DNA of 64,000 nucleotides from Strigops habroptila (taxonomy: Eukaryota; Chordata; Aves; Psittaciformes; Psittacidae), in contig NC_044288.2 of the NCBI RefSeq assembly GCF_004027225.2, positions 1,766,719 through 1,830,718 on the forward strand, given 5' to 3'. The position numbers and the translations under genes are program-made. Position 1 is the stretch's first letter. Each line of letters starts with the position of its first letter. The notes under the pieces were generated by a model that was given only the letters and a program-made list of their open reading frames with translations, was not told the origin of the DNA and did not search any database. Shown piece by piece: positions 10,087 to 54,026 of this stretch.

Positions 10087-10754
10087 TCAGAAAGCCCCGA
10101 TTTCAGTAGCCCAGGAGCGGCAGATCCTGGATGTCCCAACCCTGATCCCGGGTCCCTGCGTGGCAGCGCCCAAGGCGGGAGGTGCTGTGTAAGCCGGTGG
10201 CATGGGGATGCCAGCGGAGGCTGGTGAGAAGAGGAACGTGGCGATTTGGCTGCTCTTGGACGAGCCCTCTCTCAGTGCACCTGCTGGCGCTGGCATCCTG
10301 GGCACGGCTGCTACGGCCGCGGATGAGCCCGCACCCCGGGCCCTGCGGCTGGAAGAGCCCATCCTGCCGGCCAGGAAGCCCCGGCGGGACGGCAGCATGT
10401 CGCTGGGGACACGGCGGAGCGGGGCTGGCCTCACAGCGGGGCTGGGGTACGCCAGGGAAGATGCAGTCAAAAGAACCGGAGCGGGAGCAGCCTCCCTCCT
10501 GGGGATCTGCACGGGGCCAGCGGCGCTGTGGAGGAAGGACCACGGCCACGTCTGGATGGGCAGGAGGGAAGTGGCCACAGGCGAAGGCTCCATTTCTGCC
10601 ACGTAATTATTGAGGTGGGAGAGGAGGCGCAGCCGGATGGGGTCAGCGGCATTTTGACCCTCAAGGATGCCCAGGTACCTGACAACTTCAGTGAGGCATT
10701 CACGGAAGCCAATGCTCCTGTAATCCACAGCCAGAGCTCGAGCATCTAAGAAGC
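10087..10754 (-). CDS. HEYL: HEYL coding exon 5 (terminal)
   Basis: Two bases complete Gly105, then 221 codons and a stop. Holds the Orange domain ([20 protein letters not shown]...) and the Pro/Ser/Ala-rich tail to EIGAF. Acceptor ccctacag. Confidence 0.96.
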
Positions 10755-13700
10755 CTGTAGGGAGAGGACACAGTGACAATAAGTCCATGCGGAGCTCAGG
10801 AATGTGCTTGGATTTCACTACCCTCTCTAACACACTGTGTATTTCACTTGAGGCACTTTGCTGCCGGGCGATATTCCTGATGCAGACAGCCAAGTGGGTG
10901 TCCAGGACTGGACGTTTGCATGTGTGAGAATAGCATCTGTGGTTATCTCATCGGGACAGAGCTGCCAAGGTCATGAAGCCTCTTACTCCAGCATGTGAGA
11001 CAAGTAAGAGGTTTCGTTAACTGTGCTCAGGAAGGAAGAAATTTTTCCTATTGGACTCTAAGCTGCTGGAGACACGGCTGTGGGCCGGATGGGCACTGGA
11101 TCCCTCTTTGCAAATTGACCATCCTTGGTCCTGCAGACCGGTGGGATGCTGGGTCTCCCCATGCTCAGCTTAGCACCATTTTCCTCTGCCTGGGTCCCAA
11201 TTTTTATCCTTCATTTAAGCACATATCCAGCTGAAGGACACGGGACAGTGGCAGAACCCAAACCACTGGGCCAAGAAAGCTCAAAGCCACAGAAATCAAC
11301 AGGATAAAATACAACCCAGGGCTGCTTTTTAGGCTTCTGCTCCCTCCTTGCAGCTCCAGAAGACAATCAGCAATAAAGCAGAGAATGTCACAGCACAGTG
11401 AAGCGCTTGGACCACTTTGCTTGACGGGGTCTCTCGTGACAATACAGCCCTTTGTTGCAGTGCAGTCAAACTGAATATCTAAACAAATGTTCCAGACCAA
11501 GTTACAGCTCTGAACCAAAGCCTGGATGCCAGCAATGTCCCCAGCAAGCCAAAACCGGGTGGTAAGCAAGCCAGAGACTTCTTTACTGGAGCTGTGATCT
11601 CCATCCTGTTAACTGGAACAGGACAGAGGGTCTGTACTGAGGTCTCAGTACAAATAAGACCTTTGTTGAATTTTGCACAGGGCTCCCTCTCTCTTCTTGT
11701 AACAACCAAGAGACACACAAAAAAAAGAACAGAGAGGGAAAAAAGCCTTGTTTATTTGCAGAGTCTCCATGCAGAATCCAGCCTCTGCAGGAAACGTATC
11801 CCAGGGAGGAGGTGAAGAGCTCAGTACAGCTTTCCTGGGAGCTGAGCAGGACCAGGCACGTCTCTGGCTGCACGGCTTTTAGCAGGGTGTGTGACAACGA
11901 CAGTGGTGCCATCACCATGGATCTGTGGGATTTGCCATCCCATATACCACTGTCTGCCAAATGGATGCATGGAAACATCCCTCAAAGGGCATTTCCCTTG
12001 GGAAGCAGGCAGAGCAGCAGTCAGTTTGGTGCTGGCTGGTGTCAGCAAGGCACGCCAGGGTCAAGATACTGCTTGATGCGAGGCTGATGGGCAATTTCCC
12101 TTCCAGTTTTCACCTTCACCTCACACATGTGCAGTTCTTACCTGCTCCGCCAGTGGCGTGAAGCATTTTTAAGTGATCTACTGTCATTTGTAGAATTTCT
12201 GCCTTCTCCAGCTTGGAAGACCCCTGCGTGTTGGGAGCAGGAAAAAGAGCAATTCATCGTTTTATGAGCTGGGGTTTTGTGCCTCTCAGGAGCTGCCCAG
12301 TGACCTCCCCCCTCCAAAACCTTCCTGAAGCCCAGAAGCACTCAGATGGAGCAGAGCATCCTCCTAGGACACTGGCTCTGGTTTTCACACCCTTCCCAAG
12401 GTGCCCAGATGCAAATTGAAAAAGCCCATTTCTGTGCATCTTCATATCTGGTTTACCCAAAACACTTCCTGGATTGACTTCATCCTCCCCAGGGCTCCTG
12501 AATATTTGGGAATATTGTTTTACCACCCAGTTTCACCACCTACTTAGTCCCTGAAGTGATGATGATAAGACAGCCTGCCCGGATGGGAGGAAGTGGGAAT
12601 CATGGACACACTCACCTGCTTCTCGAAGGCGGTGGGCACCAGGCGCCGCAGCTCCGAGAGGCTGCTGTTGATCCGGTCCCGGCGCCGCTTCTCAATGATC
12701 TGCAGGAGATTCCCAAGGGGAGAGAAGAAACCAGGGTCATTTATGGCCACAGCTTCACAGGCAGGTTGGGAGAGGTGCTTAGAACAGGACCATATAAGTA
12801 AGTGGTTTTGGTGCAAAAGCTGAGCACAGAAACGTTGACTGGTGTGATAACCCCAGTGAAACCACGCTCCTCCATCCCATCCCCACCCTTTCCTGCCAAA
12901 TTTGAGGCCAAACCTCTGCAAAATAAGTCTCCGGTTGGCTGTGGGGAGAGTTCTGCAGGAGATGGAGCAGGGAACACTGTGAAGTTCATTTTCCACTGTG
13001 TCCCCACCGTAAGGACATGCCCACAGCACCCCACTGCATGCAGAGGATGCCACAGTTAGCCCTTGCAAACAGGCTGACCCCCCCAGGAGACACAGCAGAG
13101 CCACCCTGGGCAACATAAATGAGACTCACCCCTCTCCTCTTCTTCCTGGCTTGTATCTGAGACGTTGTAGTGGGAGACACAGACCTGGAAACATGGCTGG
13201 AAGGGAACAAGAGGGAATCATTTCTCATGCTAGCTAGAGAGGAACCTCCATCGCACATGTGCTTTACAGACGTTTGCCATCTGCCGTTTCCCCCCTCCCT
13301 GAATAATGTCTTCTGTAGTTCCCATCTTATTTTTACCCACAACACAGAGCTCAGGAATTGGGGATGGGAGCCAAGCAGAGACTCAAGTCCCACTCCGAGT
13401 CTCCCACCAGCCTGGGACAGATTTCTGCACCAAAGTGTCCATCTGCTACCAGGCACCCGTCTCCTTCGATCTCAACCCATGCCGGCATCTCCATGGGGCT
13501 GGAAAAGCAGCAATCCAAGCTCTGGAGTCGTGGCCTTTTCCTTCTCCATGTGTGAACCTCCCGGCTCTCGTGTCTGAGCCTGCCCTGTCTGCAGGGCTCT
13601 GCCTCTCGGAGCTGCGATAGCACCAGCATGTCCCCGAGCTCCCACCCAGGAGCAGCGAAGGGCTGGCTGCTCCTCAGGGTGAGGCTAACAGCAGCGTTGA

Positions 13701-47013: not shown

Positions 47014-49400
47014 GTGAGTGACCGGGACGCGGGGGCCACCGGGCCTGAGACCGGCGCCGGGGGGGAGGCTGTAGCAGCCGCTGGTTGTGTCCCCCAGGGA
47101 CCCAAACCCTTGTAAGGGCCCCTCTTTCCCTTTGCACCCCGAAACCCGGTGCACCCAGCGCTGACAGACCGGGGGTGCAGGGTGGGTGCAGCTCCCCACC
47201 CCGGGATGATGCTGCAACCCCGGGGGGGACCTGGGTGGGTGCGGGAGCGTGGCTGGGTGCTGCGGCTCGGCTCCTGCGGTAAATCCTGCCGCTCACCCGC
47301 AGCCGCAGCGATAGAGGCCCCCGGCACCCCACTGGCCCCGCTCGTGGGGCTGAGCCCATGGGGGGACTCACTTCTCCCTCCAGCCACGGAGGTCCCCAAA
47401 GCGGGGGGTGACAGACCCGGGAAGCCCCAGCTCCACCCCGGGCAGGGCTGGGGGTTCCCCGGCTCATCCTAGGGCAGCATCTGGCCCTGGCACTCTGATT
47501 CCCAGGATAAGGTCGCCCACCCCGAAATAATCCTTCAGGCACCGCGCATCCGACCCTGGAGCGGCTGCGGCGATGCCAGCGTGGCCATGGGTGGGGGGCA
47601 GCGGCAAGAGGGGCTCGGTGATGGCGATGGGCACCAAGTGGGCACCCAGTGGGCACCAGCGGTGGAGGGGGGGGTGCGGGACTTGGAGCCGGGTCAAGGG
47701 AAGGGGCACCCAGCCCCTGGCCGGGGCGCGGTGCTGCACCAGGCTGCGGTGCCCACAGTGATGCTGCGCTGGTGGCAAAGGGGCACAGCCCCAAGATAGC
47801 CCCGGGTGACACTGAGATGGCCTGATCCGGGACATGACTGCCCCTTTGGGGTGGTCAATAAGGGCACCGCCAGCATGGGGGTAGCGATGCTCCTGGGTGC
47901 AGGATTTGGCCGTGCCTGGAGCAGGAGGGGGGGTCACGCCATCAGCTGGGACGTCCCTATGGAGATGACACCCGCCACGGGGTCCCCATGGGGCAGGATG
48001 CTCGGGGGAAGCAGTCCGGGGTGGGTGCCTTTCCCCGTGGATTTGGGGAGCTCAGTCCCCCCAGTTCAGGCTCATGGCGCTGGGCAGCCACACTGGTGCA
48101 AGCCCCTCGCCTGCCCCAACAGCCACCCGGGGGGCGGACGTGCCGTGGGTCCCCAGGCCAAGGGCCACTGTGGAGTGTAAGCACCTGGGGCCACAGAGGG
48201 TGCAAATCAGGGACTGACCCCCAAGCGGAGCCGTCCCTGCAGACCAGGGGGGCTGCAGCCATCCCCGTCCTCCCACCCAGCACCAAACCCCTGTGCCACA
48301 GCTCAGGCCTCATGCCAGGGCAGCCTCATGCTGGGGACATGGGGACCCGTCCTTGCCCCCTCCCTGGGCACAGGCAGGGTTCAGCGATGACAAATCTCAG
48401 TCCCAAGCCGCCTGTCAAGGACAACCGTGGCACGGGCATAAGCACAGCGTGTGCGTGAATGCCAGAGGAGAGGGTGCAAATCTCCCCCCCTCCACTGCTC
48501 TGGGCACCCCAGGGACCCCTCAGCACCATCCTGCGGGCCCCAGCACCCCTCCAAAAAACCCCAGCACCCAGAGGGATGAACCCCGGGGTCACTGCACCAG
48601 GCAGCCCTCGATGCCTTTGTGCCACTCCACAGGGTACACACACCCAGTGCACATGGGGAAACTGAGGCAGGGGAGTGCAGTGGGGAACCGGGGTGCCCTG
48701 GCTCCCCCAAAACAGCCTGGGTTTTAGCATCAGCCCAGTGCAGCCCCAGTGTAAAGCCACTGCTTCCCAGGCCTGGGAGGAGGAGGAGGAAGGCAGAGCC
48801 ATCACTGTTGATGCTCAGGGGCTGAGCTGGGGCTGAGCAGGGAGCACTGGGCTGGGGGGCAGCAGCCCTGCCACTCCCCACTGCTACTGCCTCCTTCAGC
48901 TCTCCCTCTCCCATTCCCTCGCCACATTAATTAAACCCAAATGCTTAATTACAACTTGCTGAATCCCTCAGCCACTTCTCAGAGCCAACCCCATGGGGCC
49001 AACTCCGACCCCCCCACATCCCCTTAGGAAACGTTGGAGATGGGGGAACCTGGGGAGCATCCCGGCACCTGCAGGATTTGGGTTGTGGCTCAGCAGCAGC
49101 AGCATAAAGGGATCTTCATGCAACGCGTGGAAAAGAGCAAACCCAACCAGCAGCACCGGGAATTTCATCCCTGGGGGCCTTGGTCTCTCCAAGGGAAGAT
49201 GGGGACAGATGGCTCAGCCCCGGGGTTGTCCCTGCGCTGTCCCAAGGGGATGGGGATGCTCAGCCGGTGCCTGGCTGCTGGCAATAAAAAATGATCGAGG
49301 TAAATCAGGTGAAGGCTGGTGGCGGGGTGCGGGGTGGGGGTCCCCCAAGGGCATGGGGTGCCCATGGGGTGTCCTGACCCTCCTGCGTTCCTGCCTGCAG
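47014..49400 (+). other. candidate CYRI leader intron
   Basis: Two kilobases between the distal leader donor and the next noncoding exon candidate. It holds 16-mer copy 4 and an AT-rich, TTAATTAA-containing patch near 48925-48955. No gene recognised. Confidence 0.4.
48654..48669 (-). repeat. 16-mer family copy 4 (reverse)
   Basis: TGGGGAAACTGAGGCA, exact complement of the 16-mer. Confidence 0.6.
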
Positions 49401-49479
49401 GTCCCTGCCAGCCCATGAAGTGATTCAGGCGGGTGGCACAGCCCCTGCTCCTGCCATAGCCGCCGCACCGGGCACCGAG
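49401..49479 (+). other. candidate CYRI noncoding 5' exon
   Basis: Seventy-nine bases bounded by a strong acceptor (gttcctgcctgcag) and a consensus donor (CACCGAG followed by GTAAGG). It lies above the first coding exons, so it would be 5' UTR. Confidence 0.4.
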
Positions 49480-49639
49480 GTAAGGACTCGGGGCTGTGGC
49501 TGTGCAGTAGGTGGGATGCTCCGGTGCTGGCGCCAGACCCCCAAACAGGGTCTGTGTGGCTGAAATCCCAGCTGAGGTCTTCCCCTGCCCATGGGGGGAT
49601 GCCCAGCCCCGTCAGTGAGGGAATTGGCGTGACCCCATG

Positions 49640-49825
49640 AGGGGAACCGGGGTGCCTCGGGGGAGGCGGTGGGGACGGGGCGCCCGCAGGAATCGCGACA
49701 CTCCCAACCCGCGCCCCGCTCCCCGCTTCCCTCCCCGCCGCGGCACCCGGTGCCGGTCGAGCCGCCGCGTTTCGGCGGATGCTCACACCGGGGCTGGGGA
49801 CCGCGGGGCCGGGGGCCGGGCGCAG
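49640..49825 (+). promoter_or_regulatory. candidate CYRI proximal CpG promoter
   Basis: Dense CpG sequence ending in a donor-like CGGGCGCAG followed by GTAGGT, 95 bases above the acceptor of coding exon 1a. It could supply an alternative first exon. Confidence 0.4.
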
Positions 49826-49932
49826 GTAGGTGCCGCGGTTGCGTTGGGGGCTCGGGCGCACCGGGGTATCCGGCCGGCGGTTGCCGGTGCTGTTCCACTG
49901 TGCTGTGTTTCTCTCGCTCAGGTCTGCTGGCC

Positions 49933-50002
49933 ATGGGCAACCTCATAAAGGTATTGGGCAAAGATTTAGAAAACTGTCCTCATTTTTTCCTGGATTTTGA
50001 AA
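49933..50002 (+). CDS. CYRI alternative coding exon 1a (CYRIA-like)
   Basis: 23 codons plus one base: [16 protein letters not shown] then HFFLDFE, donor GTAAGT. The exon itself starts at 49921 after acceptor ctctcgctcag. [11 protein letters not shown] resembles [11 protein letters not shown] of CYRIA. Confidence 0.92.
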
Positions 50003-53000
50003 GTAAGTCCCGTGAGCGGGGCGGGCGCGGGGCGGGCCGGGGCCACCGCCGCGGCTGCTCTCCGCAAGATGGGGATAGGCATCAGTGTGTCCCCGAGCAG
50101 CCCCGTATCCCCAGGCGCCTCGGGGCAGCCCCGGATGCGACCCACAAAGGGCTGAGTTGGGCAGGAGAGCAGGACCTGTGCCTGCCCCATCCCTGAACGT
50201 GCGGGGAGACGTCCCTGGCTGAGCTCCTGTGTCCTTGGCAGCAGGACCTGGCCCGTGAGGACTTCAGCCACATGCCCACCGCTGTTAGTTGATGGCACCG
50301 GGTGGCCATTCAGGAGAGCCGGGAGGCCGGGAATGCCGGGGAAGGAGGAGGGAATGATGCATGCGCCTGTGCTGCAGGACGGGCAGTGCGGTGGTCGCAG
50401 CCTGCATCTGAGGAACAGGGGTCAGGGGCTCCAGTTCAGCCCAGGGGACCTGCCCCAGCTTCTCACTGGCCTGGGCTAACTGGGACATGGCCCTTACACG
50501 TCTCCGGCTGGACACGGGTGTACGGGAGATGGTGGCCACCACGGCAGAAGGCTGGACCCGGCGCAGCCCCAGGGCCCCCCCTTTGCTCCCTCTCCCCACC
50601 TTCCTCCTGGGGCACAGCCCAGAGCAAGAGCAAGGGGGGGTAAAAATAGTGCAGCAGCAGCCGCTCGCCTCGGCACTGGCACGTCCCAAAATAGCCGGGT
50701 TGGGGTCACGCAGCCGCCCCGCTCCCACGGTGAGGGACCTTCCTGGCTCCTCCTCGGTCCTTTGAGCCTTCGCCCACCTCCAGCCCTCTCCTCAGCCTCT
50801 GGCACGGGGATGGGGCTGGAGGGGCTCCTCAGGACCCCCGTATCAGGGCTGGCTCTGCAGCTAGAGGCGGGGACACTCCTGTAGCCAAGACTTCAGGGAC
50901 TTGCTCACCGCTTCGCCCGGCGGCTCTCTCCTCCCTCTGCTCCTTCCTCTCCATCACCCCATCCGCCAGCGCTCATCACCATCGGGGGGGAAGAGGCTGC
51001 AGCCGGGGCCGGGAGCAGCCGCGGGGTCACCCCGAGCCCCGGGGAGCCGTGGTGGGGAGACGGGGGCTCCGGCCGCCGCCGGCCTCTGCCCGTAGCCCAG
51101 CACCTCTTCCCCGAGCACCACCTCACCATCATGCTTTTTGCCTCTTGTTTCTTCTCTTGCAGGTTTCACATGGGGAACCTTCTAAAAGTGTTGACTTATA
51201 ACGAACTTGACCAAGGCCCTAATTTTTTCCTTGACTTTGAAAGTGAGATGGGATTTTTATTTCCCTTTTTCGTTCCGTACTTCTCCTGAGTTCCACATCC
51301 TCACCATTTTGAGTTCTCGTCCCCGTCGCCCATCGCATCGCGCCCATCCCAGACGTCCTCCCCCCACCTTTGCTGTCCAGGGGTCTCCCCGGGGAGGGGG
51401 GGGCCGCGGCCGCAGACCCATGGCCGGGGGCTATCGCTCCCCACCTCTTCCCCGGGGCAGTTTGCAGCCCGTTGGGGCTGAGGGCTGCTCAAGGACCCCT
51501 CCGTGAGCAGGACCACGGTCGCAGGGCAGCCAGGACTCACCCCCACCTTCCCCAACCTACGGCTTGGCTCAAGCTTGAGCAAGGAGATGGACCAGGGGGA
51601 GAAACCCGCCAGGAAGGGCTGTGGGCCGGCGGGGGAGCCGTGGGAACGGGGTGCTGCACCCCACCGCGGCTCTCGCCTCCCGGGGCCCCGCTCAGAGCCC
51701 TCCGGGTTTCTCTCCCCGGGGCGCTGCCCTGCAGATGCGCAGCCGACGGCGGCCGAGACGGCGGTGTGGAACCAGGTGAACGCGGTGCTGGAGGAGGCAC
51801 AGGCTGTGCTGGCCGAGCTGCAGTCCTACACGGGCGCGGGGCAGGAGATCCGAGAGGTGGGTGCAGCCCCGGCGCCCGCGGCCGCGCTCCCGCCGCGCCG
51901 TGAAGCAAACGCGGGTGCTCCCCCCTCCACAGGCCATCCAGAACCCCGCGGACCCGCGGCTGCAGGAGCGCGCCTGGAGCGCCGTCTGCCCGCTCGTCGC
52001 TAAGCTGAAGCGCTTCTACGAGTTCTCCCTGCGGCTGGGTGAGCGCCCCGAGCCCTGGCCCCCCTTCCCCACATCCCCCCGTGGCATCTCACATCCCTCA
52101 TAGAATCTCAGACTGGTTTGGGTTGGAAAGGACCTTAAGATCATGCAGTTCCAACCCCCTGCCATGGGCAGGGACACCTCACACTAGACCATGATGTCCA
52201 AGGCTCTGTCCAACCTGGCCTTGAACACTGCCAGGGATGGAGCATTTATCACTTCTCTGGGCACCCTGTGCCAGCGCCTCAGCACCCTCACAGGGAAGAA
52301 CTTCTTCCTTATATCTAACCTGAATTTCCCTTGTTTCAGTTTGAACCCATCACCCCTTGTCCTCTCACTACAGTCCCTGATGAAGAGTCCCTCTCCAGCA
52401 CCCCTGTAGCCCCCTTCAGACCCTGGAACATCCCCCCATTGCATCCCACATCCCTCTGTGGATGCAGCAGCGGGGCAGGGTGGGGGGAGGCCTGGCCGTG
52501 GGGTGGATGCCGCACTGCCCCGTGCCTCAGTTTCCCCAGCTGGGGCTGGGGACATGCAGGGGGGACCAGCGGTGCTTTGTCCCCAGAGAACGCGCTGCGG
52601 AGCCTGCTGGAGGCGCTCACCAGCCCCCCGTATGCCCCGACCCAGCACCTCGAGCGGGAGCAAGCCTTGGCCAAGCAGTTTGCAGAGATCCTCCACTTCA
52701 CCCTCAGCTTCGATGAGCTCAAGGTACCTCCCCATGGGACCGGGACGTGGGATGGCTGCGGGCTCTGCACACTCGGATCCTCATTCAAACCCCATGAGCC
52801 AGAACAGCCCCTTGGGACCCCTGAGGCTCCCCCCAGGCTCTGGCCATGGCCCCTCAAACAGGGCTCCCCTCCACAGATGACCAACCCTGCCATCCAGAAT
52901 GACTTCAGCTACTACAGAAGGACCATCAGCCGAAATCGCATTAACAATCTGCAGGTGAGGGGGGTCCCAGGACAGGGGATGGTTCAGGAGGGTTCTACCT

Positions 53001-54026
53001 CCCCAATGCTCCCCTCATCCCCCCCACAGCTTGACGCAGAGAGTGAGGTGAACAACGAGATGGCCAACAGGATGTCCCTTTTCTATGCCGAGGCCACCCC
53101 CATGCTCAAAACACTCAGCAATGCCACCACCAAGTTCGTTTCTGAGGTGAGCGAGGTCAGGGGGGACCCTCGGGGTGGGGAAAGCCCCCTCCAGCCCCAG
53201 CACCACATAGGGATCAGATGGGGCTGGGAGTCCCATGGTGGGCCAGGAGGGGAAACAGCATCCAGGACCTGTTGGGTTTCAGAACAAGACGCTGCCAATT
53301 GAGGACACCACCGACTGCCTGAGCACCATGGCCTGTGTCTGCAGGGTGATGCTGGAGACCCCGTGAGTACCCCACAGGGGTTGGGGGGCACATCTGGGTG
53401 CTGGAGTCCCTTCTGCCACCCTCCCTGGGCTCAGCCGGCCCCTCTCCTGGCGCAGAGAATACCGGAGCCGCTTCACCAACACCGAGACCCTCCTGTTCTG
53501 CATGCGGGTGATGGTTGGGGTCATCATCCTCTACGACCATGTCCACCCTGTGGGGGCTTTTGCGAAGACCTCCAAGATTGACGTGAGTGGCAATGGGGTG
53601 CACCAGGGGGGTCACTGCCATCCCGCTCATCCCAGTGTAGGTGTGATGCCAGGGGTCCCTCTCCCTGGATGATCCCTTTGGGGATGTCTCTGAGCTGCTC
53701 CATGGGGGAACACAGCGAGGAGGAGGATGGGGAGGAAGGGGACCAGCCCCTCACAGCACATCCAGGCTCTCACAGCTCTCTCGCTCCCCCCCACCAGATG
53801 AAAGGCTGCATCAAAGTCTTGAAAGACCAACCCTCAACAAGCACCGAGGGGCTCCTGAATGCTCTGAGGTGAGCCGGGGGCCGGGGGATCCCCCCGTGGC
53901 GCAGGGGGACAGCGGCAGAGCAGGTCGGGGTGTCGTGGGGTGACTGTCCCCTCTCTGTCCAGGTACACCACTCGGCACCTCAACGACGACACCACATCCA
54001 AACAGATCCGGGCGCTGCTGCAGTGA
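49933..54026 (+). CDS. CYRI/FAM49 family gene, third paralogue, two alternative first coding exons
   Basis: CYFIP-related Rac1 interactor: in the family, an N-myristoylated protein that binds active Rac1 and competes with the WAVE complex to limit actin branching. Exons: 1a 49933-50002 or 1b 51170-51242, then 51735-51856, 51933-52038, 52587-52723, 52877-52954, 53030-53146, 53283-53362, 53456-53582, 53798-53868 and 53963-54026. All join in phase with GT-AG introns, giving 323 residues with 1a and 324 with 1b, the lengths I recall for CYRIA and CYRIB. Gly2 in MGNL permits myristoylation. The Rac-binding pair YYRRT falls at Arg160-Arg161 in 1b numbering, as in CYRIB. Highly conserved blocks: [60 protein letters not shown]. 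Divergent residues throughout ([31 protein letters not shown]) match neither CYRIA nor CYRIB exactly, and the position between HPCAL4 and TRIT1 is not that of either in human, so I leave the symbol empty. Confidence 0.95.
50003..51734 (+). other. CYRI introns around exon 1b
   Basis: 50003-51162 and 51243-51734 flank exon 1b. Part (about 50990-51110) is CpG-rich and could hold a further promoter. No other gene recognised. Confidence 0.6.
51170..51242 (+). CDS. CYRI alternative coding exon 1b (CYRIB-like)
   Basis: 24 codons plus one base: [18 protein letters not shown] then FFLDFE, donor GTGAGA. The exon starts at 51163 after a long pyrimidine tract and ttgcag. [12 protein letters not shown] resembles [12 protein letters not shown] of CYRIB. 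Same phase as 1a. Confidence 0.92.
51735..51856 (+). CDS. CYRI exon 2
   Basis: Completes Asn, then 40 codons beginning [20 protein letters not shown] and ending GAGQEIRE, phase 0. Confidence 0.95.
51933..52038 (+). CDS. CYRI exon 3
   Basis: 35 codons plus one base, [20 protein letters not shown] through FSLRL. The preceding intron is only 76 bases. Confidence 0.96.
52099..52432 (-). mobile_element. CR1 LINE 3' tail in CYRI intron 3
   Basis: Starts CATAGAATCTCAGACTGGTT then tgggttggaaaggaccttaagatcatgcag, the complement of a CR1 3' end, and continues through tccaacctggccttgaacactgccagggatgg to about cccccttcagaccctgg. 5'-truncated. Confidence 0.94.
52523..52538 (+). repeat. 16-mer family copy 5
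   Basis: TGCCTCAGTTTCCCCA in CYRI intron 3, between the CR1 tail and exon 4. Confidence 0.6.
52587..52723 (+). CDS. CYRI exon 4
   Basis: Completes Glu, then 45 codons [20 protein letters not shown] through LSFDELK. Confidence 0.97.
52877..52954 (+). CDS. CYRI exon 5
   Basis: 26 codons, [26 protein letters not shown]. Contains the Rac1-binding arginine pair. Phase 0 at both ends. Confidence 0.97.
53030..53146 (+). CDS. CYRI exon 6
   Basis: 39 codons, [20 protein letters not shown] through TTKFVSE. Confidence 0.97.
53283..53362 (+). CDS. CYRI exon 7
   Basis: 26 codons plus two bases, [26 protein letters not shown]. Confidence 0.97.
53456..53582 (+). CDS. CYRI exon 8
   Basis: Completes Pro, then 42 codons [20 protein letters not shown] through AKTSKID. 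Confidence 0.97.
53798..53868 (+). CDS. CYRI exon 9
   Basis: 23 codons plus two bases, [23 protein letters not shown]. Confidence 0.96.
53963..54026 (+). CDS. CYRI exon 10 (terminal)
   Basis: Completes Arg, then [20 protein letters not shown] and a TGA stop. Confidence 0.97.

Follow-up and report, generated by a model that had tools for sequence, protein, structure and literature searches.

The stretch of DNA analysed here (the window, 64,000 nucleotides of the kakapo genome, Strigops habroptila) contains a gene whose 5' end carries two candidate first coding exons, either of which could open the same protein. This raises the question of whether one gene can supply two N-termini, how old such an arrangement would be, and how far it is shared with related genes.

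Gene model and identity of the window locus

A complete CYRI/FAM49 gene lies on the plus strand at positions 49922-54026, and the introns that part its coding exons begin with GT and end with AG. It opens with two alternative first coding exons, separated by 1160 nt. Exon 1a (49922..50002, +) has an 11-nt leader, an ATG at 49933, 23 residues and the donor gtaagt; exon 1b (51163..51242, +) has a 7-nt leader, an ATG at 51170, 24 residues and the donor gtgaga. Exon 2 (51735..51856), common to both forms, and exons 3 (51933..52038) and 4 (52587..52723) were placed by ag/gt boundaries and an open frame. They are followed on the same plus strand by exons 5 (52877..52954, starting at Met147 in 1b numbering), 6 (53030..53146), 7 (53283..53362), 8 (53456..53582), 9 (53798..53868) and 10 (53963..54026), the last of which includes the stop codon TGA. 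Within intron 3-4, a stretch at about 52100-52400 has a repeat-like appearance and presumably resembles a bird CR1-type repeat.

The first-pass annotation of this DNA had proposed that exons 1a and 1b each have their own acceptor and donor, share a phase and both fit exon 2 at 51735. These points were confirmed. The acceptor AGs end at 49921 and 51162, both exons end GAA-A, and the spliced products are 323 (1a form) and 324 residues (1b form) without an inner stop. The CYRIA/CYRIB Rac1-binding domain that marks the CYRI/FAM49 family (PF07159) covers nearly the whole 1a protein (E 2.2e-143, residues 18-319), and the 1b and 1a forms alike match CYRI-B chains in the PDB over their whole length. 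Both start with MGN and thus carry Gly2, a candidate myristoylation site; CYRI-B is myristoylated (PMC7955166, PMC7543656). Both models also contain YYRRT which, aligned with CYRI-B, supplies the two arginines that contact Rac1 (159/160 in CYRI-A, 160/161 in CYRI-B; PMC8236918). The two N-termini share an MGNLxKVL start and an FFLDFE end around a differing loop (about residues 9-18). In the corresponding protein region, residues 10-18 form the loop between the first two helices (PMC7543656), and residues 1-25 of CYRI-B are its membrane-binding part (PMC7955166). The proline of this region is found at position 16 in CYRI-A and 17 in CYRI-B (PMC8236918), and exons 1a and 1b place theirs at 16 and 17, respectively.

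Exons 1a and 1b have the features of mutually exclusive exons: they are homologous neighbours (50/70 nt identical), end in the same phase and have their own ag/gt sites. As had been claimed, including both would stop translation at once. The 1a-1b-2 reading runs ...FE SFTWGTF stop, with the stop at codon 31 and further stops at codons 34, 65 and 116. The idea that double inclusion is self-penalising holds in that this stop is real, but the stop is not specially designed, as an 80-nt exon shifts the frame anyway. With both first exons skipped, the first methionine of the body is Met147. The central proposal, that a single gene has two alternative and mutually homologous first coding exons and so two possible N-termini, is thus supported.

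Three CYRI loci were found in the genome (1.15 Gb, 89 contigs): the window gene on contig C12 and two others on C1 and C6. The C1 locus is taken as CYRIB, since its exons match the CYRI-B chain of the PDB. The C6 locus we take to be CYRIA, by elimination and by its likeness to CYRIA sequence. Body residues are identical at 245/295 positions between the window gene and CYRIA, 239/293 between the window gene and CYRIB, and 236/293 between CYRIA and CYRIB. As these three bodies are all 81-83% identical, the window gene is a third paralog, present in this genome beside CYRIA and CYRIB and distinct from both.

The surroundings of the gene were scanned against Pfam with 30 of the 655 open frames of at least 60 aa; three of these matched (Hairy Orange, 5'-nucleotidase and HLH), and the other 27 matched nothing. 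The 5'-nucleotidase gene (PF06189; 30285-33053, minus strand) lies about 17 kb from the window CYRI gene. A paralog of it is found on C6, about 1.0 Mb from CYRIA, and a third on C4, where the whole-genome CYRI search found no CYRI gene. A CYRI gene within about 1 Mb of two of three 5'-nucleotidase loci fits what is expected of a duplicated chromosome block. We presume that this block goes back to the vertebrate genome duplications and that the nucleotidases correspond to NT5C1A/NT5C1B. The Hairy Orange and HLH matches (10090-10947 and 12547-13125, both on the minus strand) would, on their shared strand, belong to a HES/HEY-type transcription factor gene, which we suspect to be HEYL.

A third family member named Fam49c, present in birds and not in human, has been described (PMC8872254). 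By elimination, and from the description in that paper, the window gene is most likely Fam49c; its body lies at much the same distance from CYRIA (83% identity) as from CYRIB (82%).

Paired first exons in CYRIA and the question of promoters

The exon pair is not peculiar to the window gene. An ungapped six-frame scan with the 1a and 1b peptides, covering 304 kb (the window itself and, for each of the two remaining CYRI loci, 120 kb around it), found four places scoring at least 38: the two window exons and two places in the CYRIA locus. Whole-genome searches with each peptide (E <=10; four of the four best candidates scored) returned the same four places, and a search with a CYRIB peptide found no place beyond the window and CYRIA. 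This two-exon match is far beyond chance. In CYRIA, an a exon of 23 residues is followed by a 188-nt intron and a b exon of 24 residues. The two ATGs are 265 bp apart, the a-then-b order is that of the window gene, and both exons join exon 2 in frame. Double inclusion would stop at codon 31 here too (RTKWEIF stop), so that in silico it is non-productive in both genes. CYRIA thus resembles the window gene in both exon types and in their order, phase, 80-nt b exon and stop position. It differs in the distance between the first exons (188 nt versus 1160 nt), at residue 9 of the a exon (Thr9 in CYRIA, Gly9 in window 1a) and at residue 10 of the b exon (Cys10 in CYRIA, Tyr10 in window 1b).

By blastn, the conservation upstream of exon 2 is confined to these exons. 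When the plus strand of 15.7 kb of the window locus was compared by blastn with about 104 kb upstream of CYRIA exon 2, four matches at E <=1 were obtained, and none lay outside the four first exons: a to a (5.5e-12), b to b (3.7e-14) and two weak cross-type matches (0.11). Upstream of exon 2, no other conservation between the two loci was found at this threshold.

The explanation that we favour, with considerable confidence, is that the window gene is a third CYRI paralog with an old pair of first exons, of which 1a or 1b is spliced to exon 2. The gene would be a third vertebrate relative of CYRIA and CYRIB with a DUF1394 Rac1-binding body, its first coding exon having been duplicated in tandem at the 5' end. 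A pre-mRNA begun at an upstream start would have either 1a or 1b, each through its own acceptor, joined to exon 2, and both exons would be spliced in kakapo. Either choice would give a full CYRI protein; the body would be common to the two, and the first 23 or 24 residues would change. Transcripts that included both exons would be frame-shifted and destroyed, or yield no CYRI protein, and those with neither could start at Met147 at best. The duplication of the exon would be older than the split between CYRIA and the window gene, with the pair kept in both, and CYRIB may also keep two first exons, going by the description of its human transcripts (PMC8872254). The choice would be made by leader exon or promoter together with splicing control, and the loop at residues 10-18 may alter membrane or partner binding.

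The strongest competitor to this reading concerns how the choice is made. Separate promoters or leader exons could each feed one first coding exon, leaving splicing little to choose; we give this somewhat less than an even chance. A CpG-rich stretch around exon 1a (49500..50249) is a candidate promoter region with an observed/expected ratio of 0.77-0.79, but the ratio falls to 0.47-0.55 between 1a and 1b. Strong donor-like sites occur at 49480, 49826 and, between 1a and 1b, at 50730. The first of these belongs to a candidate non-coding 5' leader exon (49401..49479, +; acceptor AG ending at 49400, donor gaggtaagg), whose donor score of 10.4 is the best of the six candidates listed for 48900-51200. 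The many variants of human FAM49B (23 exons, 78 transcripts; PMC8872254) would also suit such promoters. However, acceptors precede both exons in the window gene as well as in CYRIA, which makes the exons look internal, and the CYRIA first exons are only 188 nt apart.

Age of the two exon types and the evidence from CYRIB

Under the favoured reading, exons of one type should resemble each other across genes, and this is what was found. Between the window gene and CYRIA, the a exons are identical at 53/70 nt and 17/23 aa and the b exons at 58/73 nt and 22/24 aa, whereas the four a-b pairs share 48-50/70 nt. As like groups with like across genes, the duplication of the exon most likely predates the split of CYRIA from the window gene.

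Exon 1a is the weaker case of the two. It differs from its CYRIA counterpart at 6/23 residues, as against 2/24 for exon 1b. Third codon positions hold 11/15 of the b-exon differences between the two genes (p 0.002) and 10/17 of the a-exon differences (p 0.03, marginal). It is conceivable that one exon, more probably 1a, is a fading relic that is hardly used in the window paralog. We consider this improbable, because exon 1a retains its ATG, open frame, acceptor and donor, stands out as a significant conserved block in the blastn comparison, has a donor that outscores that of 1b (9.2 vs 7.4) and has changed preferentially at third positions.

A still less probable account is that each gene duplicated its exon independently, or that gene conversion homogenised the copies, in which case the pair would not be ancestral. 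The two types within one gene are indeed related, being 50/70 nt identical in the window gene and in CYRIA alike. However, every comparison made put an exon nearer to its same-type counterpart in another gene than to the other type in its own gene, and both genes keep the a-then-b order.

Protein structures extend the comparison beyond the kakapo. Among the CYRI-B chains of the PDB, 7ajk has a type b N-terminus and the whale shark chain 6yjj one of type a. When these two were added to the four exons read here, the six within-type pairs of N-termini scored 86-122 and the nine between-type pairs 61-76, although the grouping alone is a weak test, as a three-and-three split of six has only ten arrangements. 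The two chains differ at 24 positions: 10 fall within residues 1-24, compared with 14 among the remaining 300 (Fisher p 7e-7). Most substitutions between whale shark and human CYRI-B have been placed at residues 10-18, a region called poorly conserved (PMC7543656). This contrast between 6yjj and 7ajk looks like that of the two exon types, which is another account of it than species divergence.

These observations bear on how the two exons were first named. The labels CYRIA-like and CYRIB-like stand as names of exon types and fail as gene identities, because CYRIA has both types and CYRI-B proteins of both types exist. For the same reason, the suggestion of an ancestral pair later parcelled out, one type to CYRIA and the other to CYRIB, is unsupported. 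It is contradicted for CYRIA, which keeps both types in the kakapo genome, and CYRI-B proteins occur as type b (7ajk) and type a (6yjj). Simple chemical rules dividing the types were considered and set aside. Across the six N-termini, the net charge is -2 in all of type a and -3 in all of type b, only one apart. Window 1b lacks the Cys10 of type b and window 1a has Cys15, leaving no simple lipid-anchor rule.

In CYRIB itself, neither an a-type nor a b-type first exon turned up in the readable part of about 104 kb upstream of exon 2, nor did the whole-genome peptide searches, in which the best candidates were scored, reveal one. A search of the sister loci for a second first exon thus succeeded for CYRIA, which has both types, and gave neither type in the readable letters of CYRIB. 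Evidence for CYRIB comes from human FAM49B (PMC8872254). Its isoforms 1 and 3 have 324 aa each and differ only in the first 25 aa; exon 12 carries the isoform 3 start codon, and a guide on exon 14 destroys isoform 1. Among the RT-PCR clones of the knockout line, one carried exon 12 where exon 14 would be, with the length unchanged, and exon 14 was missing from two others; some protein of about 37 kDa was still present (PMC8872254). FAM49B/CYRIB therefore resembles the window gene in having starts on two different exons, one of which is swapped for the other at equal length. It is a different gene, however, and the passages on it in PMC8872254 give no peptides for the two isoforms, do not call the swapped exons homologous and do not extend the swap to CYRIA or Fam49c.

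We infer that the exons swapped in CYRIB are the same a/b pair, so that one of human isoforms 1 and 3 would be type a and the other type b. The surmise that the sister genes conceal the pair as well is supported by both types in CYRIA and by the published CYRIB swap (PMC8872254). There is also a human isoform 4 (316 aa, one transcript) with a further N-terminus (PMC8872254), which means that the first-exon choice of FAM49B is not strictly two-way. Isoform 2, of roughly 20 kDa (PMC8872254), would fit a start at Met147 with both first exons skipped. The arrangement of paired first exons is thus very probably real, old and shared.

Control of the choice and its significance

What could keep exons 1a and 1b apart in a transcript? 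Steric or spliceosome incompatibility, for which other exon pairs provide precedent (e.g., distant branch points in OGDH; PMC7969005), is very unlikely to bar 1a-1b joining: the introns between the first exons measure 1160 nt (window) and 188 nt (CYRIA), both donors have an ordinary GT, and the stretch free of AG upstream of the b acceptor is no longer than 45 nt (window) and 30 nt (CYRIA), so that the branch points should lie close to the acceptors. On these grounds steric exclusion was rejected, and with it U2/U12 incompatibility. As 1a-to-1b joining looks possible, exclusion would have to be a matter of regulation, of each exon having its own leader or promoter, or of decay of the frame-shifted product.

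A splicing factor that recognises TCTT was considered as a regulator. Four such motifs occur in the 80 nt upstream of exon 1b (mononucleotide shuffle p 0.007) and none at the other ten acceptors of the gene. In CYRIA, two precede the b exon (shuffle p 0.51) and none the a exon. At nine further script-picked acceptors each in CYRIA and CYRIB, between 0 and 3 were counted; one of the CYRIA picks looks misplaced. For want of support, this lead was dropped. For tissue bias, FAM49B has been listed with a predicted normal-specific cassette exon in central nervous system ESTs; as the list leaves the exon unnamed, this is only a lead (PMC2941758).

Like the tandem exons of published surveys (PMC9741552, PMC4465641, PMC5740500), which are homologous, phase-compatible, used one at a time and often ancient, the CYRI exons are homologous and phase-compatible and would form a mutually exclusive pair. 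Unlike them, the CYRI pair carries the start codon, and searches for internal exon swaps may therefore pass it over. The names CYRI and FAM49 are absent from the main text of these three surveys. The alternative first coding exons of CYRIB and the existence of Fam49c are already in print (PMC8872254). In the open-licence literature, no paper among the matches listed described a second first exon of CYRIA, reported the pair for Fam49c or recognised the two first exons as homologous throughout the CYRI family. A degenerate pattern used to look for the pair in other organisms matched once in genome contigs, in a record titled as a bacterial genome, and gave no match in viral contigs.

CYRI proteins restrain Rac1 and the Scar/WAVE complex. 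It is possible, though in our view a little more doubtful than not, that the pair acts as a regulated anchor switch, older than the vertebrate CYRI duplications and retained in every CYRI gene. Were this so, cells could alter how CYRI is seated in the membrane without changing the gene, and N-terminal differences between CYRI-A and CYRI-B, or between shark and human (residues 10-18), would largely reflect exon choice. If every CYRI gene makes two N-termini, comparisons of CYRI-A with CYRI-B must name the exon, as must tagging around P16 or P17 (PMC8236918) and knockouts of a first exon, of which the line in PMC8872254 is a case. The interest lies in the pattern across the family and in the interpretation of N-terminal differences, rather than in a new kind of system.

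The composition of the first exons also sets them apart from the rest of this GC-rich locus. Both first exons of the window gene have a GC content of 36-37%, compared with 47-71% in its other exons. A ATTTTTTCCT run coding for FF is common to all four first exons read in the window gene and CYRIA, and this run or the low GC content is perhaps a splicing element.
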